A stretch of DNA of 64,000 nucleotides, taken from Vibrio sp. NTOU-M3. GTDB lineage: Bacteria; Pseudomonadota; Gammaproteobacteria; Enterobacterales; Vibrionaceae. Position numbers and translations under genes: made by a program. Location: contig NZ_CP162100.1 in the NCBI RefSeq assembly GCF_040869035.1, positions 2,728,001 to 2,792,000 on the forward strand. The letters run 5' to 3'. Shown here piece after piece: positions 41,482 through 64,000 of the stretch (its first letter is position 1; every line of letters starts with the position of its first letter). The notes below the pieces were generated by a model. It did not search any database. It was not told the DNA's origin and was given only the letters and a program-made list of their open reading frames with translations.

Positions 41482-41484
41482 CAG

Positions 41485-44318: not shown

Positions 44319-44594
44319 ATAGATATCCTTTGTTTACACTCAATCTGAATTACATTGTTGTTATTGTTTGGCATATGAACGAAAGAACTACGCCAATATT
44401 AGAGGTGCCTAGATGACAATGATTATGAGTCTAATTCAATAGCTTGAAATATTATGAAACACCTTTTCAGTATTCAGTTGTAAAAATAAACGTACAATGA
44501 TATTTATCTATTACGAATCGTTTTATGCTTATAAAAACAGAAGTTTAATAAATTACTTAGATTATCAAGAAAAATTTTTATATAAATAGAAAAA
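44319..44594. other. AT-rich gap with no gene
   Basis: About 275 bp upstream of the chemoreceptor, very AT-rich, presumably with its promoter; I see no RNA gene or repeat here. Confidence 0.5.
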
Positions 44595-47376: not shown

Positions 47377-47502
47377 ATACACCTCGTATTTATAATTAGA
47401 TTGAGGCGTATATAAACATAAAGCTTATATAATTTTTGAGAAAAAATATTTTAAACTTAATATAAATCAATTGAACTAATACGAAGAAATTATAATAATA
47501 TT
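47377..47502. other. Short AT-rich flank outside the Tn7-like end
   Basis: Leader of the GH9-like gene. The five bases before the transposon terminus, ATATT (47498-47502), would be the target duplication if the element is intact; the matching copy would lie outside the window. Confidence 0.4.
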
Positions 47503-47654
47503 TGTCGGAGGACATTAAAGTTTGAAACTTTTCTCTCGTGTAGAGTTTAGTACCAAGTAGCCTAGATAAAAGAAGGTAACAATAAAGTTTGAAACTAACT
47601 TAATGCCATAACTCTCTGCACAACAGAATTATGACAATAAAGTTTGAAACTTTA
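47503..47654 (+). mobile_element. Left end of a Tn7-like transposon with three TnsB-type sites
   Basis: The terminus TGTCGGAGGACATTAAAG matches the Tn7 terminus TGTGGGCGGACA... in layout: TGT, a short variable part, then a site beginning GACA. Three near-identical 22-bp sites follow in the same orientation, at 47511-47532, 47578-47599 and 47633-47654, each with core AC(A/T)(A/T)TAAAGTTTGAAACT. Start-to-start spacing is 67 and 55 bp; in Tn7-L, as I remember it, three sites GACAAAATAGnnnGGAACT are 64 and 56 bp apart. Direction of the sites places the element to the right. TnsB would bind here. The tns genes and right end are not in the window. Confidence 0.8.
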
Positions 47655-47831
47655 AGCATTGTAAGAGACCTTCCTTTCTAGGCACTTAGTCATTGGTCAA
47701 CCCAGTCTCGCTTAGCAAACTTTTTGGATACAACGGAATAACGGACTCGTTTCGATTTAGTGCAAGAGCTCCTTTTAAATAAACAAAAGGGCTCCGCACT
47801 TACCTCAAGAGCCCAACTTCTTAATCGACTT

Positions 47832-48272
47832 TTAGTACTTATTATAAAGTTTCATCTGCCCTGTCTTATCAAAAGACACCACGTTAAAGCCTTTGTACTC
47901 CTGCCCTGGTCGTGCCATTCCCGGCGAATGCTGCGGCATACCGGGAGCGGCGATTCCTGAAATATTTTCAGGCCTTTCCTCAAGCAAACGCTTGATATCA
48001 GACTCAGGAACATGCCCTTCTATCATATAGCCATCAATGACAGCTGTATGGCATGACATCAGTTGACTAGGCATTCCAAACTCTTGTTTGACAGAACTCC
48101 AGTCGCGAGCATGGTTAACATTCACTTCGTAACCTTTCTTCTCCATAATTGCTGCCCATTCCTTACAGCAACCACACGTAGGCGATTTATAAAGCTCAAT
48201 AACAGGCTTAGCAAAGACGTTAAAGCTCAAAATCAAAGATGAAAGTGCAATAAGTCTCAATTTTTTACTCAT
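47832..48272 (-). CDS. copG: CopG-type copper resistance protein (DUF411)
   Basis: Periplasmic DUF411 protein with a thioredoxin-like fold, 146 aa. Signal peptide to about residue 21, then the CxCC motif PTCGCCKEW (C33, C35, C36), and C-terminal metal-binding Met and His residues (AAPGMPQHSPGMARPGQ). CopG of V. cholerae and Pseudomonas is known to bind copper with cysteine-bridged clusters; the motif is the same here. Last gene of the cus operon, 21 bp after the cytochrome gene, ribosome-binding site AGGT. Confidence 0.85.
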   Translation of the reverse strand: MSKKLRLIALSSLILSFNVFAKPVIELYKSPTCGCCKEWAAIMEKKGYEVNVNHARDWSSVKQEFGMPSQLMSCHTAVIDGYMIEGHVPESDIKRLLEERPENISGIAAPGMPQHSPGMARPGQEYKGFNVVSFDKTGQMKLYNKY

Positions 48273-48293
48273 TATAGTTACCTAACTAAAAAT

Positions 48294-48854
48294 CTATTTT
48301 ACGTTAATACTGACGGCTTCATCGCCATAGCTCAGCTCATACACTCCCTTTTCAGGAATCCACTCAAAGTGCTGAGTTTCATACGGCTCTACGCGCAGTG
48401 TTAAATGTTTACCAGCTAAAGGGGAGAGGTCAATTGACATTGACTCAAACGTTTTATTTAGTACCACCAACTGACTCTTCTCACCGCTATCTATAGAAAC
48501 TGAGAGTAGCGCCCCTTTGGTGCCTTCATACATCCAATCCACTAGCTGAAGCGTTCCAAGATACTCCATGTAATCTGCTAGATTTATCTTATCTTGTTCA
48601 CTTAATGCATCGCCTAAAAGCTTCATTGTTTGTTCATGCTCTAGGCTATATTTCAGATCATTTAAGGAGCTACCTCTGATGTTTCCACCAACATTTCCTC
48701 CCCCTTGACCATATAGCCCATGACACGCAATGCATCCATATCCCCCTACAGTACGAAAAGTAGACTCACCGACTGAAATTGAGCCTTCCGAGGCATAGGA
48801 GAATAAGCTCACACTAAATATCCCCGCTAGCATGAATGAACGCTTTAACATCAT
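48294..48854 (-). CDS. Periplasmic c-type cytochrome of the copper cluster
   Basis: 186 aa; signal peptide (about 1-22), one haem-binding motif CIACHG (C41, C44, H45) in a small class I cytochrome c domain (to about 100), then a C-terminal beta-type domain of about 85 residues without a family I recognise. Ribosome-binding site AAGGA. It sits between copI and copG in the same operon (18 and 21 bp), so it probably passes electrons in copper handling, for example oxidation of Cu(I), but no such role is proven for it. Confidence 0.8.
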   Translation of the reverse strand: MMLKRSFMLAGIFSVSLFSYASEGSISVGESTFRTVGGYGCIACHGLYGQGGGNVGGNIRGSSLNDLKYSLEHEQTMKLLGDALSEQDKINLADYMEYLGTLQLVDWMYEGTKGALLSVSIDSGEKSQLVVLNKTFESMSIDLSPLAGKHLTLRVEPYETQHFEWIPEKGVYELSYGDEAVSINVK

Positions 48855-48872
48855 CAGATTCCTTTATAGCAC

Positions 48873-49418
48873 CTATAAAGTCACTTTTTTAATCATGCCT
48901 GCTTCTGCATGCCCTGGAATATTGCATGCAAATTCAACCTTGCTGTCGCCGTGGAAGTGCCAAATCAGCTGTTTAGCTTTACCCGGTTTTACTGTAACTG
49001 CATTCCCAGAATCATGCATGTGATGAGGCATTTTTTTCATCATTTCTCGATGTTCAAGTTGCTCTTTCGCTGAACCAATAGTGAACTCGTGATCAATCTT
49101 TCCAACATTCATAACTACAAATTGAACGACATCATTTGGTTCAATTTGTACTTCTTTTTTGAACTTGATTGTCATGTCATCTGCCAACACAACATGGACC
49201 ACTTTGTCTGGTTTTGCACCTGTTGCTGGCATACCAACATCAGACATGCCTTCCATCGACATCATTGAATGATCCATTTTGCTGTGATCCATATCGTCAT
49301 GATTCATATTACTATGGTCCATCTTTGAGTGATCCATTTTAGAGTGGTCCATTTCTGCCATTGCAGATGTTGCTGTAATTGAAAGAAGTGCAGCAAGTAG
49401 TGTTTTTTTCATGTTCAT
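48873..49418 (-). CDS. copI: CopI-type periplasmic cupredoxin with Met/His repeats
   Basis: Blue-copper protein of 181 aa. Signal peptide (to about 21), then a copper-binding repeat region (22-52) made of MDHSKM-like hexamers, then a cupredoxin domain with type 1 ligands H110 (KIDHEF), C165, H170 and M175 (FACNIPGHAEAGM). CopI proteins protect against copper in Rubrivivax and V. cholerae. Ribosome-binding site AAGGA. 66 bp after cusA in the same operon. Confidence 0.88.
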   Translation of the reverse strand: MNMKKTLLAALLSITATSAMAEMDHSKMDHSKMDHSNMNHDDMDHSKMDHSMMSMEGMSDVGMPATGAKPDKVVHVVLADDMTIKFKKEVQIEPNDVVQFVVMNVGKIDHEFTIGSAKEQLEHREMMKKMPHHMHDSGNAVTVKPGKAKQLIWHFHGDSKVEFACNIPGHAEAGMIKKVTL

Positions 49419-49484
49419 ATTGTGTTCCTTAGTTATTCATTCAAAAGTTTATGGGCCAAGTTCGTTCTTAGCCCGAATGTGTGT

Positions 49485-52400
49485 TTAGTCGTGTTTTAGT
49501 TCGCGTGTTTTCCAAAGTTTGAAAATCGCAGGAAGAACAAGAAGTGTGAGTAGCAGAGCCGATGCCATACCACCAATCATTGGAGCAGCGATACGCTGCA
49601 TTACCTCAGAGCCAGTCCCCTCACCGTACATGATTGGGATCAAACCGATAATAACAGTAAGTACCGTCATCATTACCGGGCGAACGCGCAAGCCAGCGCC
49701 TTCTTGAATCGACCTACTCAAATCCTCTTCATTCAGTGATTTGCTCTGCTCTTTGGCATCCAATTTGGTGTAGTGCCAGGCTTGGTTGAGGTATACCAAC
49801 ATAATGACCCCAATCTCAACAGCAACCCCTGCTAGCGCAATAAAGCCAACGCCTACCGCGATTGAGAAGTTGTAACTAAGGTAGTGCATGAGCCACAAGC
49901 CACCCACCATAGCTAACGGCAGAGTCAGCATGATAATCATCACCTCACCTACGCGTCGGAAGCTGAAGTAAAGCAGTAACATGATGATGGCAATCGTGAT
50001 CGGCACGACAACACCCAAACGCTCTTTCGCACGCTCCATGTATTCATATTGACCTGACCATGCAATTGAATAACCAGCTGGCATATCAAGTTGCTCTGCA
50101 ACTGCCTGTTTTGCTTCCTCAACGTAAGAGCCTAAGTCTCGACCATCGATATCAACAAACACCCAACCATTAGGACGAGCATTCTCTGTTTTAATCATTG
50201 GTGGTCCATCTTCGTAGCGCACATCAGCAACATCAGCTAAGGCAATTCTAGCGCCACTAGGGGTAACCAATGGCAGTTGCTTTAGCTTAACGACTGAATC
50301 ACGATAATCTTGTGGATAGCGGACATTAATTGGGTAACGCTCAAGACCCTCAATGGTTTCTCCAACGTTCATACCACCGACAGCAGTAGAAACTACCTGT
50401 TGTACCTCTTTAATGTTAAGACCGTATCGAGCTGCCGCTGTTCGATTGATGTCAATAGTGACATAGCGACCACCGGCAACACGCTCTGCGTATACAGAAG
50501 CAGTGCCGGCAATATTGTTAAGAATAGGTTCTAGTTGAGCACCTATCTTCTCAATTTCGGTTAAATCACTCCCTGCGATCTTAATTCCAATTGGTGTTTT
50601 GATACCCGTTGCCAACATGTCGATGCGTGTTTTTATAGGCATCACCCATGCGTTAGTTAAACCAGGAAATTGAATCAAGTCATCAAACTCTTTTCGTAGC
50701 GACTCAGTTGTCACGCCCTCACGCCACTGATCACGCGGTTTAAGCTGAATAACGGTTTCAATCATAGTTAAGGGAGCAGGGTCGGTCGCTGTGTCAGCAC
50801 GACCGACTTTACCCCATGTTGTCTGTACTTCAGGTACCGTCTTAATTAATTTGTTTGTCTGCTGAAGCAACTCTCGCGCTTTACCAATAGAAATACCTGG
50901 ATAGGTGGTTGGCATATACATCAAGTCACCCTCATCAAGAGGAGGAATGAACTCACTACCGAGCTTCGTTGTTGGATAATAAGCTGACCCCATAAGAGCA
51001 ATAGCCAATACAATCATGCTTTTCGGGTACTTCAGACTAATATTCAGTAAGGGCTCATAAAGGGCAATTAGACCTTTATTAATAGGGTTCTTGTTCTCTG
51101 GTAATATTTTACCGCGAATAAGATATCCCATGAGCACTGGCACTAACGTAATAGCAAGGCCTGCTGCTGCCGCCATTGCATAAGTTTTAGTAAAGGCGAG
51201 TGGCGAGAACATCTTGCCTTCTTGACCTTCCAATGCGAATACAGGAACAAAGCTTAGCGTGATAATCAGTAGCGAGAAGAACAGCGGTGCACCCACTTCT
51301 TGCGCTGCATCTCCAATCACTTGCCATCGGTTTTTGTCAGTCAATGGCGTCCGTTCAATGTGCTTATGTACGTTTTCTATCATAACGATAGCACCGTCTA
51401 CCATTGCACCTATCGCGATTGCTATCCCTCCTAACGACATAATATTGGCGTTGATACCTTGCCAATGCATGACAATAAAGGCCCCTAAAATACCGACAGG
51501 GAGACTCAATGCGATAACGAGCGAAGACCGGATATGGAATAGAAACAACGCACACACAATAGCGACAACAATGAACTCTTCTGCAAGCTTTTTCCAAAGG
51601 TTCTCAACCGCTGCATTGATTAACGTAGAACGATCGTAAGTAGCCACTATCTCAACACCATCAGGCAAGCTACGCTGAAGCTCGTTTAGTTTATCCTTAA
51701 CATTACTGATCACTTCGCTCGCGTTTTCTCCAAAACGCATGACAATTACGCCACCTACGGCTTCGCCCTCTCCATTTAATTCAGAGATTCCTCGTCTCAT
51801 CTGTGGTCCGAGGTCAATATCAGCAACGTCGCCTAATAATAGGGGAGATCCCTTTTTACTTACCTTAAGAGGAAGCGCTTTAATGTCATCGATACTAGAT
51901 AGGTAACCAGTGGTTCGAACCATGTGCTCAGCTTCTGCAACTTCTACTACAGACGCGCCACTTTCTTGGTTACCATTTTGAATAGCCATATTGACTTGTT
52001 GTAAGGTAAGGTCATATGCGCGTAATTTAGCTGGATCAATTTGTACTTGATACTGTTTAACCATACCGCCAACAGTTGCAACCTCAGACACCCCATCAAC
52101 AGTTTGCAGCTCATATTTCAAGAACCAATCTTGTAAGCTACGCAGCTCTGCAAGGTCATGCTTGCCAGTTTTATCTTGTAAAACATAACTGTAAACCCAG
52201 CCCACACCTGTCGCATCTGGACCTAGTGTTGGTTTAGCGCTTGGAGGAAGGTTTGGTGCAACTTGACTTAAATATTCGAGCACTCGCGAGCGAGCCCAGT
52301 ACATATCGGTATCATCATTAAAAATGATGTAGACGTAAGAATCACCAAAGAACGAATATCCACGAACAGTTTCAGCGCCAGGAACCGCAAGCATAGCCGT

Positions 52401-52610
52401 TGTCAGCGGATACGTGACTTGGTCTTCCACCACTTGGGGGGCCTGACCTGGATAACTTGTTTTTATGATCACTTGTACATCAGATAGATCAGGAAGAGCG
52501 TCAACTGGAGTATTCTTTACGCTATATAATCCGCCAAAGACTAAAGCAAAAGTCGCTACCAATACCAAAAAGCGATTATTGATAGACCATCGAATGATTG
52601 CACCTATCAT
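49485..52610 (-). CDS. cusA: CusA-type heavy-metal RND efflux pump
   Basis: Inner-membrane proton-driven pump of the Cus complex exporting Cu(I)/Ag(I) from the periplasm; 1041 aa (E. coli 1047). Twelve membrane helices and two large periplasmic loops. Heavy-metal RND features: MYMPTTYPGIS and RIDMLATGIKTPIGIK, which carry the methionines used for metal binding in CusA, and IAIGAMVDGAIVMIENVHKH with the proton-relay acid residues. Stop and start overlap cusB by one base, so they are coupled. Confidence 0.95.
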   Translation of the reverse strand: MIGAIIRWSINNRFLVLVATFALVFGGLYSVKNTPVDALPDLSDVQVIIKTSYPGQAPQVVEDQVTYPLTTAMLAVPGAETVRGYSFFGDSYVYIIFNDDTDMYWARSRVLEYLSQVAPNLPPSAKPTLGPDATGVGWVYSYVLQDKTGKHDLAELRSLQDWFLKYELQTVDGVSEVATVGGMVKQYQVQIDPAKLRAYDLTLQQVNMAIQNGNQESGASVVEVAEAEHMVRTTGYLSSIDDIKALPLKVSKKGSPLLLGDVADIDLGPQMRRGISELNGEGEAVGGVIVMRFGENASEVISNVKDKLNELQRSLPDGVEIVATYDRSTLINAAVENLWKKLAEEFIVVAIVCALFLFHIRSSLVIALSLPVGILGAFIVMHWQGINANIMSLGGIAIAIGAMVDGAIVMIENVHKHIERTPLTDKNRWQVIGDAAQEVGAPLFFSLLIITLSFVPVFALEGQEGKMFSPLAFTKTYAMAAAAGLAITLVPVLMGYLIRGKILPENKNPINKGLIALYEPLLNISLKYPKSMIVLAIALMGSAYYPTTKLGSEFIPPLDEGDLMYMPTTYPGISIGKARELLQQTNKLIKTVPEVQTTWGKVGRADTATDPAPLTMIETVIQLKPRDQWREGVTTESLRKEFDDLIQFPGLTNAWVMPIKTRIDMLATGIKTPIGIKIAGSDLTEIEKIGAQLEPILNNIAGTASVYAERVAGGRYVTIDINRTAAARYGLNIKEVQQVVSTAVGGMNVGETIEGLERYPINVRYPQDYRDSVVKLKQLPLVTPSGARIALADVADVRYEDGPPMIKTENARPNGWVFVDIDGRDLGSYVEEAKQAVAEQLDMPAGYSIAWSGQYEYMERAKERLGVVVPITIAIIMLLLYFSFRRVGEVMIIMLTLPLAMVGGLWLMHYLSYNFSIAVGVGFIALAGVAVEIGVIMLVYLNQAWHYTKLDAKEQSKSLNEEDLSRSIQEGAGLRVRPVMMTVLTVIIGLIPIMYGEGTGSEVMQRIAAPMIGGMASALLLTLLVLPAIFKLWKTRELKHD

Positions 52611-54319
52611 TACTTATCCTCACTTTTAACTAACTCTTTGAGAAGATAATCAGAGCCTTGTTTCTCCACTAGAAACCGAACTTTGTCACCCTCCTGAAAA
52701 CTTGAGAGTTCAATATCACCACCGACTGAAAAGTTGAGCTCACCTGCGTCCCATGACCAATCAGCCACTGGGGCATGATTTAGTGTCACCATACCAAAGT
52801 CCGCCATTAACATAGAGACATCACCGTCTATCCATACTTCTGTATTTATGCTCAGCTCACTTACTTTGTAATCAACGATTTCATATTGACCGGATTCAGA
52901 TTTTTTCATTTCAAAGTCGATCATTTTCCCTTTTGAAAGTGGTTCCATTTCAACGTGCTCTGACACCATAAAGTTCATGGTCATTCCTGGCCAATCCCAC
53001 TCTGGAACAGGCTTATGATTAATCGTTAGCATCCTATGTCCAAGCATTGCATCAGTAATTTCACCTGTTGCCCAAGCCGTTTCGGCAGTGGGTTCGATGC
53101 CATTGATTCTTGATAGGTCGGCAGACTGACTTGATTCAGAGTCCAACATGAAGTGCGCTGACGTAACAACGCGCTCTCCTTGTCGCAACCCCTTTAGAAC
53201 CTCAATCTTATCTGCGGCTTCACGACCAACTGCAATTCTGGCAGAACGATATTTTCCTTCCCCCTCAGCCAGCACCACACGAGTCATACCACCAGATCGA
53301 ATGACCGACGATCGAGGGATGGTTAACACTTCATCATTTGATACTGGTTTCAGAGTGACATTTGCAAACATATTTGGCTTAAGTTCGCCTTGTGGATTAT
53401 CGAATCGAAGGCGAACACGCAATGTACGGGTACTAGGGTCTAGAATGGGATAGACATAATCCACTTCACCATTCCATTCTCCACCTGGTAAGGCATCCAG
53501 TGTCATAGATGCTTGACTGCCTTGTTTAATCCAATGGGATTGACGTTCAAAGACTTCAGCATCTACCCATACTTGATTCAAAGGACCTGCGCTGATCACC
53601 GCCTGAGCTGGAGAAAGGTAGCCACCTTCACGAATATTGAGGCTTGCAATAACACCATCTGCTGGTGCTTTAATTTCAATGGTTTGTGATGCTTTACCTC
53701 TACGGGCAATGGAATCAATTTGATTGCGATCAACCCCCAAAGTGATCAAACGATCGGTAGCACCTTGTATCATTCCTTTACGCTGAGTTTTATAGGCACT
53801 AATCAGTTCTTCTTGTGCTTTTACAAGCTCAGGTGAATACAGAGTGAACAGTGTGTCACCTTGATTCACTTTCTCACCAACGGCATTGATATAAAGCTTT
53901 TCAACCCAGCCAGATACACGAACATTGGTTTGCCAAAGTTGACTCTCATCAAAGGCGACATAGCCGACAGTTTCGATGCGTGGTGCAAGCACTTCTTGCT
54001 GCACAGTATCTGTTTTAACGCCAAGGTTATTTTCAACACCAGGATCAATTTTCACTGTTCCTGGCTTGTCGTTACTACCATTGAGATCATCAGCATACAC
54101 AGGAATAAGATCCATCCCCATAGGGGACTTTCCTGGCTTATCTCGCTGATAGTTTGGGTCCATCGGCGCGACCCAGTACAGTGGTTCATCACTTGATTGA
54201 GACTCAGAAGCTGTCATTCCAGCCATGTTATGGTTCATGCCTGAAAGGTAAATATTCGCTCCATAACCCAATGCGCTTCCGACTAGTAACGCTAGGCTTG
54301 CAACTTTAAATGTATTCAT
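52610..54319 (-). CDS. cusB: CusB-type membrane fusion protein with two C-terminal CusF-like domains
   Basis: Periplasmic adaptor between CusA and CusC, 569 aa from ATG 54319 (AAAGGA upstream; the frame is open to 54388 inside cusC). N-terminal anchor, a heavy-metal-binding segment YWVAPMDPNYQRDKPGKSPM, then barrel-sandwich, hairpin and beta-barrel domains to about 415. Two CusF-like domains follow: 417-490 with intact copper site (H, W and Mets in WDWPGMTMNF) and 495-569, in which the matching stretch is WSWDAGELNF, without the Met ligands. E. coli has a separate CusF; here the chaperone is fused. Confidence 0.93.
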   Translation of the reverse strand: MNTFKVASLALLVGSALGYGANIYLSGMNHNMAGMTASESQSSDEPLYWVAPMDPNYQRDKPGKSPMGMDLIPVYADDLNGSNDKPGTVKIDPGVENNLGVKTDTVQQEVLAPRIETVGYVAFDESQLWQTNVRVSGWVEKLYINAVGEKVNQGDTLFTLYSPELVKAQEELISAYKTQRKGMIQGATDRLITLGVDRNQIDSIARRGKASQTIEIKAPADGVIASLNIREGGYLSPAQAVISAGPLNQVWVDAEVFERQSHWIKQGSQASMTLDALPGGEWNGEVDYVYPILDPSTRTLRVRLRFDNPQGELKPNMFANVTLKPVSNDEVLTIPRSSVIRSGGMTRVVLAEGEGKYRSARIAVGREAADKIEVLKGLRQGERVVTSAHFMLDSESSQSADLSRINGIEPTAETAWATGEITDAMLGHRMLTINHKPVPEWDWPGMTMNFMVSEHVEMEPLSKGKMIDFEMKKSESGQYEIVDYKVSELSINTEVWIDGDVSMLMADFGMVTLNHAPVADWSWDAGELNFSVGGDIELSSFQEGDKVRFLVEKQGSDYLLKELVKSEDK

Positions 54320-54332
54320 CTTGATTCCTTTA

Positions 54333-55724
54333 TTATTGTTCTTTGTACTGAGTGTTTGGCGCAGAAACTTGATATTCGAAACCACCAAGTAACATGGATA
54401 ACTTGCTATTGACCTGATTCATATCGGTTATTAGGCGAGCAAGCTCCATTTGAAGAGCCAATTCATCGGTTGATGCAGTAATGACATCACCAAACTGAGC
54501 AGTATTGTTCTGATAGCCGCGCTCTACCGCTTCAATGCGGGCTTTAGACTGAGGTAATAAGCGCTCTTGGTAGCGCTGAATGCGTTCAGTGAGATTCATT
54601 CTGTCCGTCATTAATGCGTTTACTTGGGCGTTCATTTGAGCGAGCAGCGTATCTTTTTGATATTGCGCTGCACCTACTTGGTATTGAGCGGCCGCTACAT
54701 TTTTATCTTGGCGGTTGTCAGTGAACAAAGGGATATCCATAGTAAGATAGGCACTCAGCAAATCTGAAGCTGGCTCACCCTTCATGTTGTTCGCTTGGCG
54801 GTAGGCATACATCACTTCGACACCAAATTGTGGTGTATAAGATTGCTCTGCAACCTCAGCCTGAGTACGATTAGCAGAGATGTTGGCGTCAGCCATTTGC
54901 GCCATAGGATGTTGGTTAAGCAGTGAGTAGTACTGAGTGTTGCTGGTTTGCTGCTCCAAAAGCGTATTCAAACGCGACCAGTCTAATTGATAGCCTGCCT
55001 GATTCGAATCAATGGAACGGTGATTTAACCACTCTGAGCCTAGCCATTCTGATAACTGGGCTACGGCTCGATTTTGCATTTGTTGATTCGATTGCAGCTT
55101 TTCGTCGAGCTTGTTGACTTGAAGCTGGGTGTTAAGCAGATCTTGCGCTTCACTCTTACCAATTGAATAATTGGTTTGAATATACTGCTCCATCTCTACC
55201 ATGAGACGTTGATTAGATTCAATCAACGTTTCTGCGTATTGAAGGTAGCCCAGCTCCAACCATAGTTGAGTAATACTATTCGCCACTTCACGTTCACGAA
55301 CTTGAACCTGATAGGCCATACCATCGGCCTGTTGATTCGCTTTACGTTGGTTAAGATCTAACGTTGCACCCCGTTCAAACTGTTGCATTAATCCAACAGA
55401 AATGTTCGTCATGGGATCTTCGTCAAACTTAAATGAATCCACAGGTAAACCGCCAAAGCCCACCTTAAGTTTTGGATCCATGAGAGTCGAGCTTGCAACG
55501 CCCGTTTCACGCATCGCCTGTGACTGCGCAGCATATTGAGAGCGACTCGTATCATTTGCTAGAGCCGATTCAATTAGTGCATTCAACTGCTGCGTCGAAG
55601 CTGCGATAGTTTGTGGAGTCGCGTTCGGCCCCGAATGTGACAGGGCAGGCATTGCACAAAGTGCGACTGCAACCCCAAGGCTCAGGGATTTAAATGCCCT
55701 GAAGCCGTTTAATTCAATACTCAT
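54333..55724 (-). CDS. cusC: CusC/TolC-type outer-membrane channel
   Basis: Outer-membrane factor of the Cus efflux complex, 463 aa. Signal peptide (about 1-31) and two TolC repeats rich in long helices (ERGATLDLNQRKANQQADG, AQMNAQVNALMTDRMNL). No lipobox Cys, whereas E. coli CusC is lipidated. First of the cusCBA trio; 13 bp to cusB. Confidence 0.9.
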   Translation of the reverse strand: MSIELNGFRAFKSLSLGVAVALCAMPALSHSGPNATPQTIAASTQQLNALIESALANDTSRSQYAAQSQAMRETGVASSTLMDPKLKVGFGGLPVDSFKFDEDPMTNISVGLMQQFERGATLDLNQRKANQQADGMAYQVQVREREVANSITQLWLELGYLQYAETLIESNQRLMVEMEQYIQTNYSIGKSEAQDLLNTQLQVNKLDEKLQSNQQMQNRAVAQLSEWLGSEWLNHRSIDSNQAGYQLDWSRLNTLLEQQTSNTQYYSLLNQHPMAQMADANISANRTQAEVAEQSYTPQFGVEVMYAYRQANNMKGEPASDLLSAYLTMDIPLFTDNRQDKNVAAAQYQVGAAQYQKDTLLAQMNAQVNALMTDRMNLTERIQRYQERLLPQSKARIEAVERGYQNNTAQFGDVITASTDELALQMELARLITDMNQVNSKLSMLLGGFEYQVSAPNTQYKEQ

Positions 55725-55816
55725 TGTTGTTTATCCACGATAAAACGATATGGACATATCCCAACCTCTGCCTTCCAGCAGAAAGAATTGAGAGCTAAAT
55801 AGTTATGATAGTTGAA

Positions 55817-56233
55817 TTAAACAGAGGGTGGACGCAGTAAGCTCTGAATACGAGTTACTGTAACGCCTATTTTGATTGGGTGACGCTGGGCTAAATCAGA
55901 TTCAGATGTACTGATTAAGCGAGAAGATGAGAGTGGAAAAAATACGCTAGAACACACGCTTTTACAGCAGTCGCCACCAAATGTAGATGAGCTCTCGCAA
56001 TGTATAGAACTATCGCTCTCTGTCATCTCCATCGATGGGCAGCCTACCATCGCATGATGGCTTGCTGTAGTCTCAGACATTTCCATCGAGTCATGGTGAG
56101 AAAGTTTGGGTTGAACTGAAGAGGACGATATTGGACTCATACCCATCATTGGCATACTTGAGACGTAGCTCGACATCAACATCGCTAAGATGCTGATAAT
56201 CAAAATACTTGTTTGTCTCAAAGAGTTTGTCAT
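55817..56233 (-). CDS. Small Met/His/Cys-rich exported protein, CopL-like
   Basis: 138 aa from ATG 56233 with AAAGG 6 nt upstream (a GTG at 56248 is in frame). Signal peptide or anchor (about 5-26), then a stretch rich in Met, His, Ser and Cys: LSHHDSMEMSE, SHHAMVGCPSMEM, and GGDCCKSVCSS. The pattern resembles CopL/DUF2946-type copper proteins, but I cannot assign it firmly. Between cusS and cusC, so it belongs to the operon; probably a periplasmic metal-binding protein. Confidence 0.7.
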   Translation of the reverse strand: MTNSLRQTSILIISILAMLMSSYVSSMPMMGMSPISSSSVQPKLSHHDSMEMSETTASHHAMVGCPSMEMTESDSSIHCESSSTFGGDCCKSVCSSVFFPLSSSRLISTSESDLAQRHPIKIGVTVTRIQSLLRPPSV

Positions 56234-56310
56234 GTGGTACCTTTTCACTTTGCATTCATAATACCTTATGAAAACTGATGAGCAATAGTGATATTAAAAA
56301 TCTATTGGAG

Positions 56311-57630
56311 CTAAAGATTATTGAAAATAAAGACGAATTCAGTTCGCTCATCCTTCGCATTAACTAAGATATCCCCATTGTGTGCTTTCATAATAGCCTT
56401 AGCGATAGGAAGCCCTAATCCAGCACCAACACTTCCGTTATGGGCACGCGACTTATCGGAACGATAGAACCGTTCAAATATATAGGGCAAAGAGCTCAAG
56501 GGGATAGGCTCACCAGTATTGCTAATTGTCACCTTGTTGCTCGTTTCTGATTCGGAGATTACTACCGAGATATCCGTATTATGAAAGCAGTGCCTCAACG
56601 CATTAGACAACACATTCCCAAATGCTCGTTGAAGCATATCTTTGTCACCGTACAGAGTCGACGAACCATCTAGAGTAAATCGAACGTTTTTCTCTTCCGC
56701 CAACGCTTCATAACACTCAAGTAAGGGTGTGATAACCGCTTTCAACTCTAACTCTGATTCGGTCTTATGCAAAAGTTGATTCTCTGATTTAGCTAGGTAC
56801 AGCGTATCCGAAATGGTCTTATTGAATCGCTCCAACTCTTCGACATTAGATACTAAAATATCTTGGTACTCTTCAACGGAGCGCTCTATACCAAGTGCAA
56901 CTTGAGTCTGGGTCAGGATATTGTTCAACGGTGTTCTTAACTCATGAGCAATATCGGATGAAAACTCACTCAACCTGAGGTGACCTTCTTGCAACCTCTC
57001 TAACATTTCATTTTGAGAAATAATTAAGCTGCTTAACTCCTTTGGAAGTGAGTCACTTGGTATACGCATGCTGAGGTTGCTCGTATTCACTTGTGCGATA
57101 TACTCTTTTAATTGTTTCAATGGCTGTAATCCATTTCTAACAATAATTAATGCGTAAGCACCCGACAAACTCAGTGTTAAAACTAATGTCCAAAATAGAA
57201 TAGTATTTAGCTTGTCGAAAAACACCTTATGGTGAGTCACATCCATTGCAAGAACAACCGCACCACCTTCTATCTCTGGGTAATCAAACTTAAAAGCATG
57301 AAAGCGGGTATTGCCTACACTCCATTCATATGAGGAGCTGCCTATCAGCTCAGATGGAAAGTCAATAGTTGCATTATTTGTTTTCACCACCTGTTTGTTG
57401 TTTAAGATCCAAGCGGAAATACCCCAAGAATGGAACAAGTCTAAATCACGCTCAACAGTGCCTATCAAAGGGCGGAGTTTTGTTTCTAGGTGCCTATAGT
57501 CCTGTTCATAAAAGTGGCTCTTGATAGCGTGTAGGATCGTTAAAGCAAACACGACTAAAACCACAAAAGAGGCAGTGACAAACATAAACACCAGTTTACG
57601 TGCGATGGATTGATTTAGTGATTTTTTCAT
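56311..57630 (-). CDS. cusS: CusS-type sensor histidine kinase
   Basis: Membrane kinase sensing periplasmic copper/silver, 439 aa. Two membrane helices (about 14-36 and 147-168) flank a periplasmic sensor; HAMP, then H-box FSSDIAHELRTPLNNIL, N-box FGNVLSNALRHCFHN and G-box VGAGLGLPIAKAI. Follows cusR with a 4-bp overlap. Confidence 0.92.
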   Translation of the reverse strand: MKKSLNQSIARKLVFMFVTASFVVLVVFALTILHAIKSHFYEQDYRHLETKLRPLIGTVERDLDLFHSWGISAWILNNKQVVKTNNATIDFPSELIGSSSYEWSVGNTRFHAFKFDYPEIEGGAVVLAMDVTHHKVFFDKLNTILFWTLVLTLSLSGAYALIIVRNGLQPLKQLKEYIAQVNTSNLSMRIPSDSLPKELSSLIISQNEMLERLQEGHLRLSEFSSDIAHELRTPLNNILTQTQVALGIERSVEEYQDILVSNVEELERFNKTISDTLYLAKSENQLLHKTESELELKAVITPLLECYEALAEEKNVRFTLDGSSTLYGDKDMLQRAFGNVLSNALRHCFHNTDISVVISESETSNKVTISNTGEPIPLSSLPYIFERFYRSDKSRAHNGSVGAGLGLPIAKAIMKAHNGDILVNAKDERTEFVFIFNNL

Positions 57631-58310
57631 TCTACGGCGTCATCAAGCTTGTACCCCATACCTCGCACGGTCTGGATAAGTTTGTTCTGATAAGGCTTGT
57701 CGATTTTCGACCTCAATCTTTTCACTGCTGCATCAATAACATTCGTATCACTATCAAAGTTCATATCCCAAACAGCAGACGCTATCTGAGTGCGAGTGAC
57801 GACTTGACCCCTCTTCGTAAATAGATATTCCAACAAAGAAAACTCTTTTGCTGTCAGAGGGATCGTGTCATTGTTGCGAGTCGCCTTTCGTTTAAGCAAG
57901 TCGAGGCTCAAATCAGCAATACATAGCACAGACTCAGTTTTGACTGTGGTAGTTTGATGACGTAATGCATTTTTGACTCTAGCAAGCAACTCGACAAAGG
58001 CAAAAGGTTTGACAAGGTAATCATTCGCTCCCAGCTCAAGCCCTTTCACTCTATCTTCAACCTGATCTTTAGCGGATAGAATGATGACAGGTGTAGGAAT
58101 TTCACTGCTGCGAAGCGTTTGCAATAGCTGCCACCCATTCAGCTTTGGTAGCATAATGTCTAAGACTATCAGGTCATAATCATTGGTGGTAGCTAAGTAC
58201 AAAGCATCAACACCGTCGGTAGATAGATCTACAGTGTAGCCTGATTCAATTAAGCCCTTTTTAAGATAAGCTCCCGCTTTCTCTTCATCTTCTACAACGA
58301 GTAACTTCAT
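57627..58310 (-). CDS. cusR: CusR-type response regulator (OmpR family)
   Basis: 227-aa regulator: receiver with phosphorylation site D51 (LIVLDIMLP), Lys in LSAKDQ, and a winged-helix output domain (about 130-225). It should bind the ATGACA-N4-TGTCAT boxes found at 59186, 61246 and 62092, matching the known CusR box. Coupled to cusS. Confidence 0.92.
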   Translation of the reverse strand: MKLLVVEDEEKAGAYLKKGLIESGYTVDLSTDGVDALYLATTNDYDLIVLDIMLPKLNGWQLLQTLRSSEIPTPVIILSAKDQVEDRVKGLELGANDYLVKPFAFVELLARVKNALRHQTTTVKTESVLCIADLSLDLLKRKATRNNDTIPLTAKEFSLLEYLFTKRGQVVTRTQIASAVWDMNFDSDTNVIDAAVKRLRSKIDKPYQNKLIQTVRGMGYKLDDAVE

Positions 58311-58340
58311 ATAAGAAAAATGCCTTGAATTCCTTGGATG

Positions 58341-58682
58341 TTATACATCGAGCTTGTGATTATATGATGGGTTAGAAATTTGATTTTTCGTATTATTATC
58401 AAACAACAAAACGTTTTCTATGACAGACGTAACACCATTTCCTTCTTGTGACACACATAGAGTATCTAGTAATGCACCAACTAAAATCTGAGTATGGCTA
58501 TGACCAATGAAAACATCTAGTTGGTAATGTGTATTTAAAGCATGGGTATCAATTAGGTTCGCATGACTTCCACGCCCTTGTACTTGATAAATTGTGAAGT
58601 TTCGCACGCCTTCCTCCGCGAGCACCGATTCTATATCTTCAAGCTTTTGATCCTGAAATATTACCGAAATTTTATCAATCAT
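58341..58682 (-). CDS. PII-like signalling protein of a metal-resistance operon
   Basis: 113-aa protein with the ferredoxin-like fold pattern of PII-like proteins: a short N-terminal strand-helix, IYQVQGRGSHANLID at the place of the T-loop, then LLDTLCVSQEGNGVTSVIENVLLFD. It lacks the uridylylated Tyr of GlnB. Genes of this kind are often placed near CusA/CzcA-type pumps, with unknown roles, possibly metal- or nucleotide-sensing. Ribosome-binding site AAGGAG. Between the DUF3316 gene and cusR. Confidence 0.7.
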   Translation of the reverse strand: MIDKISVIFQDQKLEDIESVLAEEGVRNFTIYQVQGRGSHANLIDTHALNTHYQLDVFIGHSHTQILVGALLDTLCVSQEGNGVTSVIENVLLFDNNTKNQISNPSYNHKLDV

Positions 58683-58734
58683 AGTTGCTCCTTAACTCCT
58701 AGAACAAATTGATGCTCTAGGAGCTCTGCTGAGA

Positions 58735-59115
58735 TTAGTTGTTGCTATCTCGTTCTCGATAATGGACATTAAGATGTACCTTAGCTACATACTCTAGCTG
58801 ACCTTGATTATTCAACCTTTCCTGAACAGTTACGTACCCTCCATCTTTCAGGTGAGTAGAATTTCGAGCACTACCATAAGTTCTTACAGGGACCAGAGCT
58901 GTACTTAAATCTCGCCCGCTCATATCCTCAAACTCTGACAGTTTTTCCAGCCCTAACGTGTATGCTTGCTGTTTAGAGCTCACGGCATCAATAGAGACTG
59001 TTTTATGATCAACTCGACTCACATAATTGCCACCGGAATACAATGGTTGTGCAAATGATGCGGCACTAGTAAGTATAATAGAGCTAGTTAATAGAGTTTT
59101 GACTAATAGATTCAT
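58735..59115 (-). CDS. Exported DUF3316-like protein
   Basis: 126 aa; signal peptide (about 1-22, ASFA cut), then a small beta-rich domain with VSIDAVSSKQQAYTLGLEKL, the pattern of DUF3316 proteins common in vibrios. Function unknown. First gene of the cus operon, 70 bp behind the CusR box; ribosome-binding site AAGGA. Confidence 0.65.
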   Translation of the reverse strand: MNLLVKTLLTSSIILTSAASFAQPLYSGGNYVSRVDHKTVSIDAVSSKQQAYTLGLEKLSEFEDMSGRDLSTALVPVRTYGSARNSTHLKDGGYVTVQERLNNQGQLEYVAKVHLNVHYRERDSNN

Positions 59116-59185
59116 TATTATTTCCTTCTCTGTTTGGATGCTCTTAGTTTATCTAAACCAGTGTGACCGTTTTCGGCACTCAAAC

Positions 59186-59201
59186 ATGACATTTTTGTCA
59201 T
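59186..59201. promoter_or_regulatory. CusR-type operator of the cus operon
   Basis: ATGACATTTTTGTCAT: a perfect 6-bp palindrome with 4-bp spacer, matching the E. coli CusR box. It lies 71 bp upstream of the DUF3316 gene, the first gene of the minus-strand unit that runs to copG. Confidence 0.85.
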
Positions 59202-59307
59202 ATTAAGATTTAGGAGGGAGACAATCGATAGACTTTTAACCGCAATAAAATCAAGCACCCCCAAAAATAGCCTTGCAGTGATTGCGAAGAATCCTGTGGC
59301 TATAAAC

Positions 59308-59314
59308 GATAAAG
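59308..59314. repeat. Target site duplication, left copy
   Basis: GATAAAG directly before the left inverted repeat of the IS; identical to 60521-60527. Confidence 0.85.
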
Positions 59315-60520
59315 TGTATTAGTTCCGACTAGATCTGACACTTCAATTTGAAAAGAAGAGAGTTACCCACTTTGATTAAAGGTGCTGAATCCGTAATCAA
59401 AGACAATAAGAGGTAACTCTCATGCTTCATACTAGCAATCCAATCATCAAACACAAAGCTGGTCTTCTCAATCTTGCAGAAGAGCTTGGCAATGTATCTA
59501 GAGCCTGCAAGGTTATGGGTGTCTCACGAGACACGTTCTATCGCTATCAAGAATTGGTTGAAACTGGTGGCATTGATGCTCTGATTAATCAAAGCAGAAG
59601 AACACCAAACTTGAAGAACCGAGTTGATGGCGAAACAGAACAAGCCGTTCTCAAGTACGCCATTGATTTTCCTGCTCATGGACAAGTTCGAACAAGTAAC
59701 GAGCTGCGTAAGCTAGGTGTGTTTATTTCGCCAAGTGGCGTGCGTTCAATCTGGCTTCGTCATGACCTAGAAAACTTCAAAAAGCTCCTTATCGCCTTAG
59801 AAAGACAGGTAGCTGAAAACGGTATCATTCTAACGGACGAGCAAGTTGCTGCTCTTGAGCGTAAGAAGCACGATGATGAAGCTTGTGGTGAGATAGAAAC
59901 AGCACATCCAGGTTATCTAGGCTCTCAGGACACGTTTTATGTCGGCAACCTTAAGGGTGTTGGACGCATCTATCAGCAGACGTTCGTTGATACCTATAGC
60001 AAAGTAGCTTTCGCTAAGCTCTACACAACCAAAACACCAATCACAGCAGCAGATATGCTCAATGACAAAGTCCTACCGTTCTTCGAGACTCACGCGCTAC
60101 CTATGCTCAGAATCTTAACCGACCGAGGCACTGAATACTGTGGCCGCGTTGAACAGCACGACTATCAACTCTACCTTGCCATCAATGATATCGACCACAC
60201 CAAGACTAAAGCCATGTCGCCACAGACAAATGGCATCTGCGAGCGCTTCCACAAGACCATATTGAATGAGTTCTACCAAGTAACATTCAGAAAGAAACTG
60301 TATGGGTCGATGGAAGAGTTACAGAAAGATCTGGACGAATGGATGGACTACTACAACAATCATCGTACTCATCAAGGAAAAATGTGCTGCGGCAGAACGC
60401 CAATAGAAACATTAGAGGATGGGAAATCAATCTGGGCAGAAAAGAATCTAGCCCAGATATAATCTGACAGGCACCGAGTCAAAAAGTGGGTAACTGTCAG
60501 ATCAGGTCTGAATTAGTACA
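59315..60520 (+). mobile_element. Complete IS481-family insertion sequence
   Basis: 1206 bp bounded by imperfect terminal inverted repeats: TGTATTAGTTCC... on the left and TGTACTAATTC... on the opposite strand at the right; about 20 of 26 positions agree, ending in GATCTGACA. A second, inner inverted pair (TTACCCACTTT at 59365 and its complement at 60484) is present. 7-bp duplications GATAAAG flank it. It sits between the cus operon and the small-gene/copA part of the island, at the base of a terminator. Confidence 0.92.
59422..60462 (+). CDS. IS481-family transposase
   Basis: DDE transposase of 346 aa. N-terminal helix-turn-helix (about 10-60, NVSRACKVMGVSRDTFYRY), then an RNase H-fold integrase domain with the acid triad in TFVDTYSKVA, LTDRGTEYCG and NGICERFHKTILNEFY. 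No frameshift or stop; with intact ends, the IS may be active. Ribosome-binding site AGAGG. Confidence 0.95.
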   Translation: MLHTSNPIIKHKAGLLNLAEELGNVSRACKVMGVSRDTFYRYQELVETGGIDALINQSRRTPNLKNRVDGETEQAVLKYAIDFPAHGQVRTSNELRKLGVFISPSGVRSIWLRHDLENFKKLLIALERQVAENGIILTDEQVAALERKKHDDEACGEIETAHPGYLGSQDTFYVGNLKGVGRIYQQTFVDTYSKVAFAKLYTTKTPITAADMLNDKVLPFFETHALPMLRILTDRGTEYCGRVEQHDYQLYLAINDIDHTKTKAMSPQTNGICERFHKTILNEFYQVTFRKKLYGSMEELQKDLDEWMDYYNNHRTHQGKMCCGRTPIETLEDGKSIWAEKNLAQI

Positions 60521-60527
60521 GATAAAG
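60521..60527. repeat. Target site duplication, right copy
   Basis: GATAAAG, same as 59308-59314; its last base starts the terminator stem. Confidence 0.85.
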
Positions 60528-60560
60528 AGCCGCCCAGGTAGCTCAGGCGGCTCTTTTTTA
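60524..60560. terminator. Terminator next to the IS
   Basis: Stem AAAGAGCCGCC/GGCGGCTCTTT with an 11-nt loop and T-run on the plus side. It would end the minus-strand 60874-60612 unit. The IS insertion point cuts in just at the base of its left arm. Confidence 0.85.
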
Positions 60561-60611
60561 CTCGAAAAAGTAAAGGGGATCTCTTTTTCTGATTACGAAT
60601 ATTTCATTTGT

Positions 60612-60854
60612 TCAGCTACTCATCATTTTTTTGCACTCTTCTGGCATGTCTTCCATGTTCATGTTTTGCATCATTTGCATGTGTTCCATCATCCCATCGT
60701 GATCCTTCATCTTATCCGCGTGAGATTGCTTAGCATGCACTTTCTCATTTTGCGCGACATTGTGATGTCGATGCTGATCATCGATGGAACTTGTTGCTAA
60801 CACCGGCATCGCAACTAGACCACTTAATAACACTGATACATATAACTTTTTCAT
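60612..60854 (-). CDS. Small exported Met/His-rich protein
   Basis: 80 aa; signal peptide (about 1-20, ending VLA), then a polar part very rich in His and Met: QHRHHNVA, KMKDHDGMMEHMQMMQNMNM, ending ECKKMMSS. Most likely a periplasmic copper/silver-binding protein; no family can be named with confidence. 19 bp after the DUF2933-like gene, within the unit behind the CusR box at 61246. Confidence 0.7.
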   Translation of the reverse strand: MKKLYVSVLLSGLVAMPVLATSSIDDQHRHHNVAQNEKVHAKQSHADKMKDHDGMMEHMQMMQNMNMEDMPEECKKMMSS

Positions 60855-60873
60855 AAAATCACCTAACCCTTAC

Positions 60874-61161
60874 TTATGCTTTGAACTGTTGATTGTTTTC
60901 AATTTTTTCCACCGATTGCTCGTTGGCTTCGGAGCCTTTCTTTTCACTCGGCATCATCATCTTCATCATTAAACCATGCATCGCTAAACAGATGATTAAT
61001 GGAACAATCGCACTACTAAGGTATGCCCAACTAAACATCTCTTGGCTAGAAGAGAGAATAAATAATGGAATACCCACCATTAGTAACGCGCATAGAACCA
61101 TCATCCATCCATGACCTTTATGATGACCATTCTTGTGACAATCTGATTTTTTGCTTTTCAT
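60874..61161 (-). CDS. Small two-helix membrane protein, DUF2933-like
   Basis: 95 aa from ATG 61161 with GGAG 9 nt upstream (a TTG at 61176 is in frame). His/Lys/Cys-rich N-terminal tail (SDCHKNGHHKGHGW), two membrane helices (about 15-36 and 45-68, the second ending in MMKMMM), acidic C-terminal tail. Similar small proteins occur in copper-resistance clusters. Role unknown. First gene of its unit. Confidence 0.65.
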   Translation of the reverse strand: MKSKKSDCHKNGHHKGHGWMMVLCALLMVGIPLFILSSSQEMFSWAYLSSAIVPLIICLAMHGLMMKMMMPSEKKGSEANEQSVEKIENNQQFKA

Positions 61162-61245
61162 TCTCTTGCTCTCCAAAATAACTTTAACTCGTTTAACTGA
61201 GATTCAGTTTATCGCAACGTTTAGATCAGGAGTGGGGAGGGATTA

Positions 61246-61261
61246 ATGACAGTTTTGTCAT
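61246..61261. promoter_or_regulatory. CusR-type operator of the small-gene unit
   Basis: ATGACAGTTTTGTCAT, the same palindrome as at 59186; 84 bp upstream of the start at 61161. Confidence 0.85.
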
Positions 61262-61831
61262 CTTAGCCCTTTAAAACTACCAAGCGATTGGCGTTGGACT
61301 CCACCGTAAAAGAAGAACGCGGATATTGCTGCTTCGGCAATGCTTAGCTCTACCGTCATACGGGGCTATACTTCACAATATAAATGGAGCTGTTGTGTTT
61401 TTTTATATCCACAAATAGCTTGAAAATCTGCCAACCACGAAACAAGTAAACATAACACGTGCACTTTGATTACAGATGAATCTGCACATTTCGTTACTGT
61501 TTGTTTTGTGTTCAAAGTAGAATACCAACCTGCCGGTAAAGAGCTAATCTACTCCAGTGATTTCAACTGCTATTTGGCAACAACTTGGTAAAGCTTGACC
61601 GTTCCTGATTAAGTTTTTCATTTTCGTTTAATCTTGTGCATGCAATGAGCTTTAATAGCAAAAGTGTTTCCCGATATCAGTCAAGATTAAACGCTTTGAA
61701 GTGATCGAAAGCGTTAGAATAATTTATGGTATAGCGATTTTACAGGCATGACTGTGATGTTTTTATTTTTTGAAAATCAATGAGATAAAAAATTGTTATG
61801 ATTGTTTCTTTGTTTGGGGACCTTAGCCCGA

Positions 61832-61996
61832 TTAAGCAGGCTCAGTACTCTGTCTTTCAGACTGTCTCGCGCGGTCAATCAAAGTCCTGGCATCTGCCAG
61901 CACTACTCTTGTAGGCTTGGCACTAGACATTAAGGGTAGGCCCTTTTGCAGGTAATTGTAGGTGCTTTCTTTATCCTCATTAAGCAGCTGTTTCAT
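61832..61996 (-). CDS. Short hypothetical protein, 54 aa
   Basis: Reads MKQLLNEDKESTYNYLQKG, then a part with KPTRVVLADARTLIDRARQ and ending STEPA. Polar, no signal peptide, no family I recognise. Composition looks coding and like copA next to it rather than the cus operon. No clear ribosome-binding site. It may be a real small gene or the tail of a gene brought along with copA. Confidence 0.4.
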   Translation of the reverse strand: MKQLLNEDKESTYNYLQKGLPLMSSAKPTRVVLADARTLIDRARQSERQSTEPA

Positions 61997-62091
61997 AGTT
62001 AGTTACGTGAAGTTGGTTACCTTGATGATGGTGCACATTAAGTTCTGTTCTCAAGCTCGTTATAATGGGTTCAAGGGTATTTCGCTAGAAG

Positions 62092-62107
62092 ATGACATTT
62101 TTATCAT
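62092..62107. promoter_or_regulatory. CusR-type operator upstream of copA
   Basis: ATGACATTTTTATCAT: one mismatch from the palindrome at 59186. 72 bp before the copA start. Confidence 0.7.
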
Positions 62108-62179
62108 CTTCACGTCATGTAGGCATCAGGTGTGCCTATCTATGCTGTCTCTATGTCAAAAGACAATCTAGGAAAAATT

Positions 62180-63940: not shown

Positions 63941-64000
63941 GTAAACAGAGAGCGATGATGAAACATTTATTGGGCGTGTTGGCGCTGACCGCTTTTCCTG
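63937..64000 (+). CDS. copB: Probable CopB, N-terminal end only
   Basis: 21 codons to the window edge: MSKQRAMMKHLLGVLALTAFP, the beginning of a signal peptide. Start overlaps the copA stop by 4 bp, the usual coupling of copA and copB (outer-membrane copper resistance protein). Identity is inferred from position. Confidence 0.55.
   Translation, partial: MSKQRAMMKHLLGVLALTAFP

Follow-up and report, generated by a model that had tools for sequence, protein, structure and literature searches.

A Tn7-type transposon carrying a copper-gene cassette behind glmS of a vibrio, and mosaic copies of its cargo in other vehicles

If the three short direct repeats that lie beside a set of copper genes in Vibrio sp. 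NTOU-M3 are the left end of a Tn7-like transposon, as had been proposed from the sequence alone, then transposition genes, a matching right end and a second copy of the flanking ATATT should lie farther to the right. The repeats occur in the window, i.e., the 64,000-nucleotide stretch of DNA that was analysed (G000:C1:2728001-2792000 of a two-contig genome of 4,856,941 bp); the DNA to its right is numbered as L011, with L011:1 being the window end + 1 (Table 1).

Exact copies of TAAAGTTTGAAACT lie at 47516, 47583 and 47638, spaced by 67 and 55 bp, after the terminal sequence TGTCGGAGGACA at 47503-47514, and these are precisely the positions given by the sequence-only reading. The spacings of 64 and 56 bp that it gave for the left end of Tn7 also held: the copy of Tn7 in plasmid R721 (NC_002525, L057), which served as our reference, has sites so spaced after TGTGGGCGGACA, and its left sites start at 10, 74 and 130, compared with 10, 77 and 132 here. 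With up to two mismatches allowed, TAAAGTTTGAAACT has six matches in the window where 0.99 are expected (none of 100 shuffles attained six), two of the six being reverse-strand readings of the same sites and one lying elsewhere in the window. The exact 14-mer occurs four times in the 84 kb from window position 1 to L011:20000, always at the two ends of the element, and the exact 13-mer AAAGTTTGAAACT six times in the 4.86-Mb genome, with four of the six at these ends.

The right end is situated 16.5 kb outside the window. A search of the genome for the TnsA family gave a single match, 32 kb to the right, and the exact site recurs beside that match: the terminus TGTCGTAAGACA belongs to a right end in which three packed copies of the left-end site run up to L011:16490 and are followed by ATATT, the repeat that had been predicted. 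From 47503 to L011:16490, the element measures 32,988 bp, with ATATT immediately outside each end. Its two termini (TGTCGGAGGACA and TGTCGTAAGACA) are identical at 10 of 12 positions and are of the TGT...ACA type, and the three separated sites on the left and packed sites on the right are those that characterise Tn7. Not only tnsA, tnsB, tnsC and tnsD, which had been sought in this direction, but also tnsE are present, and the right end abuts glmS, the stop codon of which is 25 bp away. With a probability that we put at about 0.96, a complete and probably functional cut-and-paste transposon of the Tn7 type, located at attTn7 behind glmS, has its left end at position 47503; from its sequence, the element may still be active in transposition.

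That the repeats arose by chance or form a regulatory array of the copper operon (e.g., operator sites), for which their location some 180 bp beyond the stop codon of the first cassette gene might speak, is ruled out by the right end made of the same motif 33 kb away and by the ATATT outside both ends, and it is further opposed by the left end that Vibrio galatheae retains without the copper cassette and by two plasmid copies of the cassette that lack the left-end repeats in the stretches read.

Table 1. Coordinates of the transposon, its cargo and its target site (plain numbers, window positions; L011 numbers, positions to the right of the window).
Feature	Position	Strand	Basis or remark
Left target duplication ATATT, 5 bp	47498..47502		end comparison
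Left end: TGTCGGAGGACA and three TnsB-type sites, spacing 67 + 55 bp	47503..47654	+	motif search
Transposon portion within window	47503..64000		continues in L011
DUF411 protein, first cassette gene	47832..48272	-	PF04214
Small protein, CxxCH motif, cytochrome-c-like by eye	48294..48854	-	no Pfam match at E 0.001
Cupredoxin-family protein	48873..49418	-	plasmid-copy annotation; no Pfam match at E 0.001
CusA-type RND efflux pump	49485..52610	-	ORF; annotation of matching plasmid genes
CusB-type adaptor, CusF domains fused, start codon uncertain	52610..54388	-	PF16576, PF11604
CusC-type outer-membrane protein	54333..55724	-	PF02321
Heavy-metal sensor kinase, CusS-type	56311..57630	-	annotation of matching plasmid genes
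Response regulator, CusR-type	57627..58310	-	annotation of matching plasmid genes
P-II-like small protein	58341..58682	-	PF00543
DUF3316 protein	58735..59115	-	PF11777
Insertion sequence, rve-type transposase (59422-60462)	59315..60520	+	comparison of copies
Window part of 7.7-kb module (to L011:4933), G+C up to 0.55	61273..64000		copy comparison
Copper P-type ATPase	L011:5114-7834	-	
CueR-like regulator	L011:7836-8300	-	
tnsE	L011:8660-10288	-	
tnsD	L011:10298-11815	-	
tnsC	L011:11818-13476	-	
tnsB	L011:13476-15578	-	
tnsA	L011:15547-16377	-	
Terminator-like hairpin	L011:16383-16418	-	
Right target duplication ATATT	L011:16491-16495		outside window
glmS	L011:16516-18345	-	

Among solved structures (PDB), the best matches of TnsA, TnsB, TnsC, TnsD and TnsE are all proteins of Tn7, and identities to their counterparts in R721 Tn7 are 46.9, 48.4, 56.6, 45.8 and 33.5%, respectively, TnsE being the least conserved. 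By comparison with the same reference, TnsA retains E63, D114 and K132, and TnsB retains D273, D361 and E396, the catalytic residues of the two proteins; Pfam assignments, structure matches and these residues together identify the pair as a heteromeric TnsA + TnsB transposase. TnsC has conserved Walker A (GCSGNGKT) and Walker B (VLIIDE) motifs, as expected of an AAA+ regulator, and both target selectors are present, i.e., TnsD (PF15978 and PF06527, TniQ) and TnsE (PF18623). The order and orientation of tnsABCDE are those of R721 Tn7, and a hairpin directly precedes tnsA in both. The two elements differ in that the right end has three recognised sites here, 20 and 21 bp apart, versus four at 20, 21 and 20 bp in Tn7; in that the element is 33.0 kb long versus 14.1 kb; and in that the cargo consists of copper genes rather than the antibiotic-resistance genes of R721 Tn7. 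For Tn7, PMC2918618 gives glmS as the target and places insertion "about 20 bp" past the gene, compared with 25 bp past the stop codon here.

By analogy with Tn7, TnsD would recognise the 3' end of glmS and TnsC would link TnsD to TnsA and TnsB. The latter two would bind and cut both ends of the element and insert it 25 bp beyond the stop codon of glmS, duplicating 5 bp of the target. Through TnsE, a second route would be available, into conjugating plasmids. It might be supposed instead that the element is a CRISPR-associated Tn7-like transposon (CAST), in that a CAST is present elsewhere in the same genome and the CAST of another vibrio carries the same cassette. However, this element has a full TnsD (PF15978 and TniQ) as its target selector, with tnsE adjoining, the insertion is at attTn7, and the open reading frames of 90 aa or more listed from cueR to the right end comprise just tnsA to tnsE and one short frame overlapping tnsE. 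No tniQ-cas8/5-cas7-cas6 occurs among the open reading frames at the tns end of the element, and this content (TnsD and tnsE, no cas genes) rules out a CAST identity.

The terminator-like hairpin directly before the tnsA start has a folding energy of -17.6 kcal/mol (z -4.7) and a T-run that almost reaches the start codon. It is kept in 12 sequences that range from this clade to Tn7 (L057): pairing holds in 93.5% of cells across the nine distinct of these 12 sequences, which none of 500 shuffles attained; three pairs have changed on both sides, a number reached by 29 of 500 shuffles; and for the count of additional pair types, 492 of the 500 shuffles were at least as good. A hairpin also folds in the more distant element L041, and by eye none was evident in the distant elements L038, L039, L040 and L042. 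Because Tn7 inserts where the glmS terminator can lie, the hairpin is likely to be a replacement terminator that also shields the tns genes from glmS transcription, a feature probably already known for Tn7. In two other glmS loci (L066 and L068), an inverted repeat, recognised by eye, directly follows glmS.

The cargo, which occupies the interval from the left end to the stop codon of tnsE, contains a copper cassette extending from the DUF411 gene (47832) to a small gene before cueR (about L011:8550-8600). An efflux pump, metal-responsive regulators, a P-type ATPase and a multicopper oxidase are present, bearing out the earlier description of the cargo as a full cus/cop system, and this content suggests a function in copper export and oxidation, with a corresponding copper phenotype. 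The P-II-like protein encoded inside the cassette is annotated in plasmid and CAST copies as well. Two parts of the cassette are visible as later additions when copies are compared. The insertion sequence is absent from the cassettes of V. bivalvicida (G128), G068, G177, G130 and the V. alginolyticus plasmid. The 7.7-kb module, with genes for a multicopper oxidase (62132-63940), CopB, a cupredoxin and a MerR-type protein, occurs in three of the eight compared copies (ours, V. bivalvicida and V. alginolyticus) and is absent from G068, G177, G130, G216 and THAF190c; it is bracketed by a direct repeat of about 105 bp (61163-61266 and L011:4934-5038, 79% identical). In G068, which is without the module, one stretch matches both copies of this repeat.

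A Tn7-like element reportedly carries a copper or metal island in Pseudomonas syringae (Aprile 2021), and a Tn7-like carrier of copper or heavy-metal resistance is described for Burkholderia (PMC10702557); what both share with ours is a carrier of this type. Copper cargo on Tn7-like elements is thus already known, and as a Tn7 element ours is well delimited and ordinary.

Near relatives of the element also sit behind glmS. A TnsB match at E <=1e-100 was obtained in 10 of 148 genomes, in four of these at 88% identity or more, our own included, and the same transposon clade (TnsB 87-100% identical) comprises elements of V. bivalvicida 605, V. galatheae S2757, V. methylphosphonaticus S4B1 and uncultured Vibrio 1078. 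The elements of V. bivalvicida and V. methylphosphonaticus have the same cassette at 93-99% identity, the former without the insertion sequence; that of uncultured Vibrio 1078 has a cus part only 76% identical, and that of V. galatheae has other cargo. Target duplications of 5 bp flank several relatives (V. bivalvicida, CTTAT; V. galatheae (G132), CCTTT; G177, CCCAT; G216, AATAG); in G068 the duplication is imperfect, with one mismatch (TGAGA/TGGGA), and the tnsE match is shortened. The elements of G177 (L128/L129) and G216 (L132/L133) each abut the ends of a second Tn7-like element (TGTCTTTCGACA; TGTCCGCCGACA), and these arrangements are tandem Tn7-like elements.

No relative was seen to keep 47503-47830 without the island. 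Homology of V. galatheae to the element is confined to the left end (47501-47653) and resumes at 72683 (L011:8683), near the end of tnsE; alongside this end it has tns genes of its own and other cargo, which is what is expected of a transposon end. The sequence directly after tnsE varies among elements with different cargo.

Between V. bivalvicida and our strain, TnsB is 100% identical and the DNA of the element 94-99% identical; when the glmS ends are compared (1 kb), identity of ours to the V. bivalvicida, G068 and G130 ends is only 69-70%, versus 91-99% for the cassette. Since the element and its TnsB are nearly identical next to glmS genes of about 70% identity, these comparisons indicate that the element has moved recently between distant vibrios by horizontal transfer.

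Among 30 glmS loci, our own included, three (L066, L068 and L089) have a stretch homologous to our 40489-41482 directly following glmS, and the counterpart of our 40493-41471 in V. bivalvicida stops 37 bp away from the left end, on its outer side, so that the element-free site can be seen in other species. At one further glmS locus, L083, the homology is to our 43419-44324, which belongs to a gene that we name by eye as chemoreceptor-like. In our genome, 6 kb separate the 40489-41482 stretch from the left end, comprising the chemoreceptor-like gene and the gene at 44656-47382. The latter, next to the left end, encodes a 908-aa protein with Golvesin_C and F5/8 type C domains. An exact empty site ending at 47502 was not found: this flanking gene has matches of no more than 34 and 47 bp in the other 226 of the 227 genomes of the genus searched, part of the gene having been searched in 148.

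The cassette itself is not confined to Tn7-type elements. A 1.6-kb marker from its left part is present whole, at 91% identity or more, in five of 227 genomes of the genus, our own included; some match occurs in 180 of the 227, the others among those listed being partial and mostly to the cupredoxin gene. A plasmid search with window positions 47503-55400 returned two records, 89.6 and 94.0% identical over 96% of the query. Plasmid NZ_CP119336 of V. alginolyticus has the whole cassette, module included, at 93-98% identity, next to Tn3-type transposase genes, and the 45 kb read contain no match to tns genes. In plasmid pTHAF190c_c of Vibrio sp. THAF190c, the cassette lies in a type I-F3 CAST (NZ_CP045341:49757-80208; L095 with L127) that has tnsA, tnsB, tnsC, tniQ, cas8/5, cas7 and cas6. 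Its cas8/5 is split over two reading frames of 216 and 487 aa.

This CAST interrupts the dcm gene of the plasmid and is bounded on both sides by CTTTT, to which ends beginning with TGA fit; a left end of the TGT type was sought and not found. Of the 33 bases of a spacer in its array, 23 match a site in dcm that lies 47 bp from the right end; apart from the spacer itself, this is the best match within a 54-kb stretch (the next best has 20). A distance of 47 bp between protospacer and insertion is that of type I-F3 elements, and the position fits a guide-directed insertion into dcm. The cassette of this CAST, which is without the multicopper-oxidase module, is 87-95% identical to ours, collinear and in the same orientation, and in both transposons the DUF411 gene adjoins the left end while cueR adjoins tnsE (ours) or cas6f (THAF190c). 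The vehicles themselves differ: the THAF190c element has other transposition proteins, with only a 27.6% local match to our TnsB, is crRNA-guided, resides in plasmid dcm rather than behind glmS, and has four genes as additional cargo, the annotation placing an ATP-binding protein, a DEAD/DEAH helicase, a hypothetical protein and a helix-turn-helix regulator between tniQ and tnsC.

A full type I-F3 CAST gene set of the THAF190c kind is also present in our genome (C1:1092866-1115597; L136, L137), with identities to THAF190c of 93% for tnsA, 86% for tnsB, 88% for tnsC, 83% for tniQ, 80 and 83% for the cas8/5 pieces, 86% for cas7 and 83% for cas6; Tn7 and this CAST family therefore meet in one cell. 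Between its tnsC and tniQ lie a type I restriction system and a gene for a 1,246-aa protein with a reverse-transcriptase domain (L136:8328-12068), and a short array follows cas6. In G130 (G130:C35, L130/L131), a Tn7 left end and the copper cassette are followed by a type I restriction system; 68 kb contain neither a match to tnsA-E nor a right end, and this is possibly a recombinant or decayed element.

The trees of three cassette genes conflict with one another, and the conflicts are well supported. That of cusA places THAF190c with V. alginolyticus, nested with our copy and that of V. bivalvicida. In the copA tree our copy is joined to that of V. alginolyticus (99.2%), and the V. bivalvicida copy to G130; the cusRS tree pairs V. 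alginolyticus with G130 and leaves THAF190c outside all but G216. Over 29 windows of 500 columns each, the nearest relative of our copy is the V. alginolyticus plasmid in ten, the V. bivalvicida Tn7 element in nine, G177 in two, G130 in two and G068 in one, with five ties, and the THAF190c CAST copy in none. Incompatibility of neighbouring informative sites is 0.327, versus 0.502 (sd 0.0025) in shuffles, none of 200 being as low; this is our own simple version of a homoplasy index, applied to seven copies (14,871 columns, 1,092 sites) after leaving out G216, the cus part of which is only 76-79% identical. By these sequence comparisons the cassettes are shown to be mosaics, and recombination among copies in different vehicles is well supported for those borne by Tn7 and by plasmids. 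For the CAST-borne copy, it is only the shared layout and the cusA tree that point to recombination.

A further reading, which adds to the Tn7 explanation rather than replacing it and to which we assign even odds, is that the cassette is a unit independent of its vehicle, such that Tn7, CAST and plasmid copies recombine in shared hosts and cargo passes between target selectors. It agrees with the collinearity of the Tn7 and CAST copies, with a closely similar plasmid copy apart from any tns genes in the DNA read, with the disagreement among trees, the shifting nearest relative and the excess compatibility of neighbouring sites, with the presence of the same CAST family in this genome, and with G130, the structure of which is what a single crossover could leave. 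Against it, the CAST copy is never the nearest to ours and branches outside the others except G216 for cusRS; the mosaic test is home-made, with seven copies and G216 omitted; and the recombination could predate entry into the present vehicles. Nor do the edges of the cassette share a recombination site: on one side homology fades at a stretch resembling a terminator that lies beyond the DUF411 gene, on the other upstream of the small gene that precedes cueR, and no shared motif was seen there in the alignment. We hold as slightly more doubtful the specific proposal that the cassette has been traded by homologous recombination between a protein-aimed Tn7 (glmS) and an RNA-guided CAST (plasmid dcm), in vibrios that contain both.

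In the literature consulted (titles and the beginnings of abstracts, which do not prove absence), we found no description of this element or of a cassette shared by Tn7 and CAST. A review (PMC11406308) considers undiscovered cargo-capture mechanisms of Tn7-like transposons likely, and Benler et al. (PMC8649781) leave open the share of homologous recombination in cargo capture. The transposon behind glmS is a clear example of the movement of copper genes between vibrios with compared glmS ends that are 30% different, and the part that deserves follow-up is the cargo that is shared, and mosaic, across types of targeting. One cassette can be traced through two differently aimed transposons and a plasmid within one genus, with measurable mosaicism, and the question of cargo capture is therefore directly testable. 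If the exchange is real, one cargo would reach both a chromosomal safe site and plasmids by switching vehicles, and recombination between resident copies of the cargo would account for at least some of the capture of cargo by Tn7-like elements.
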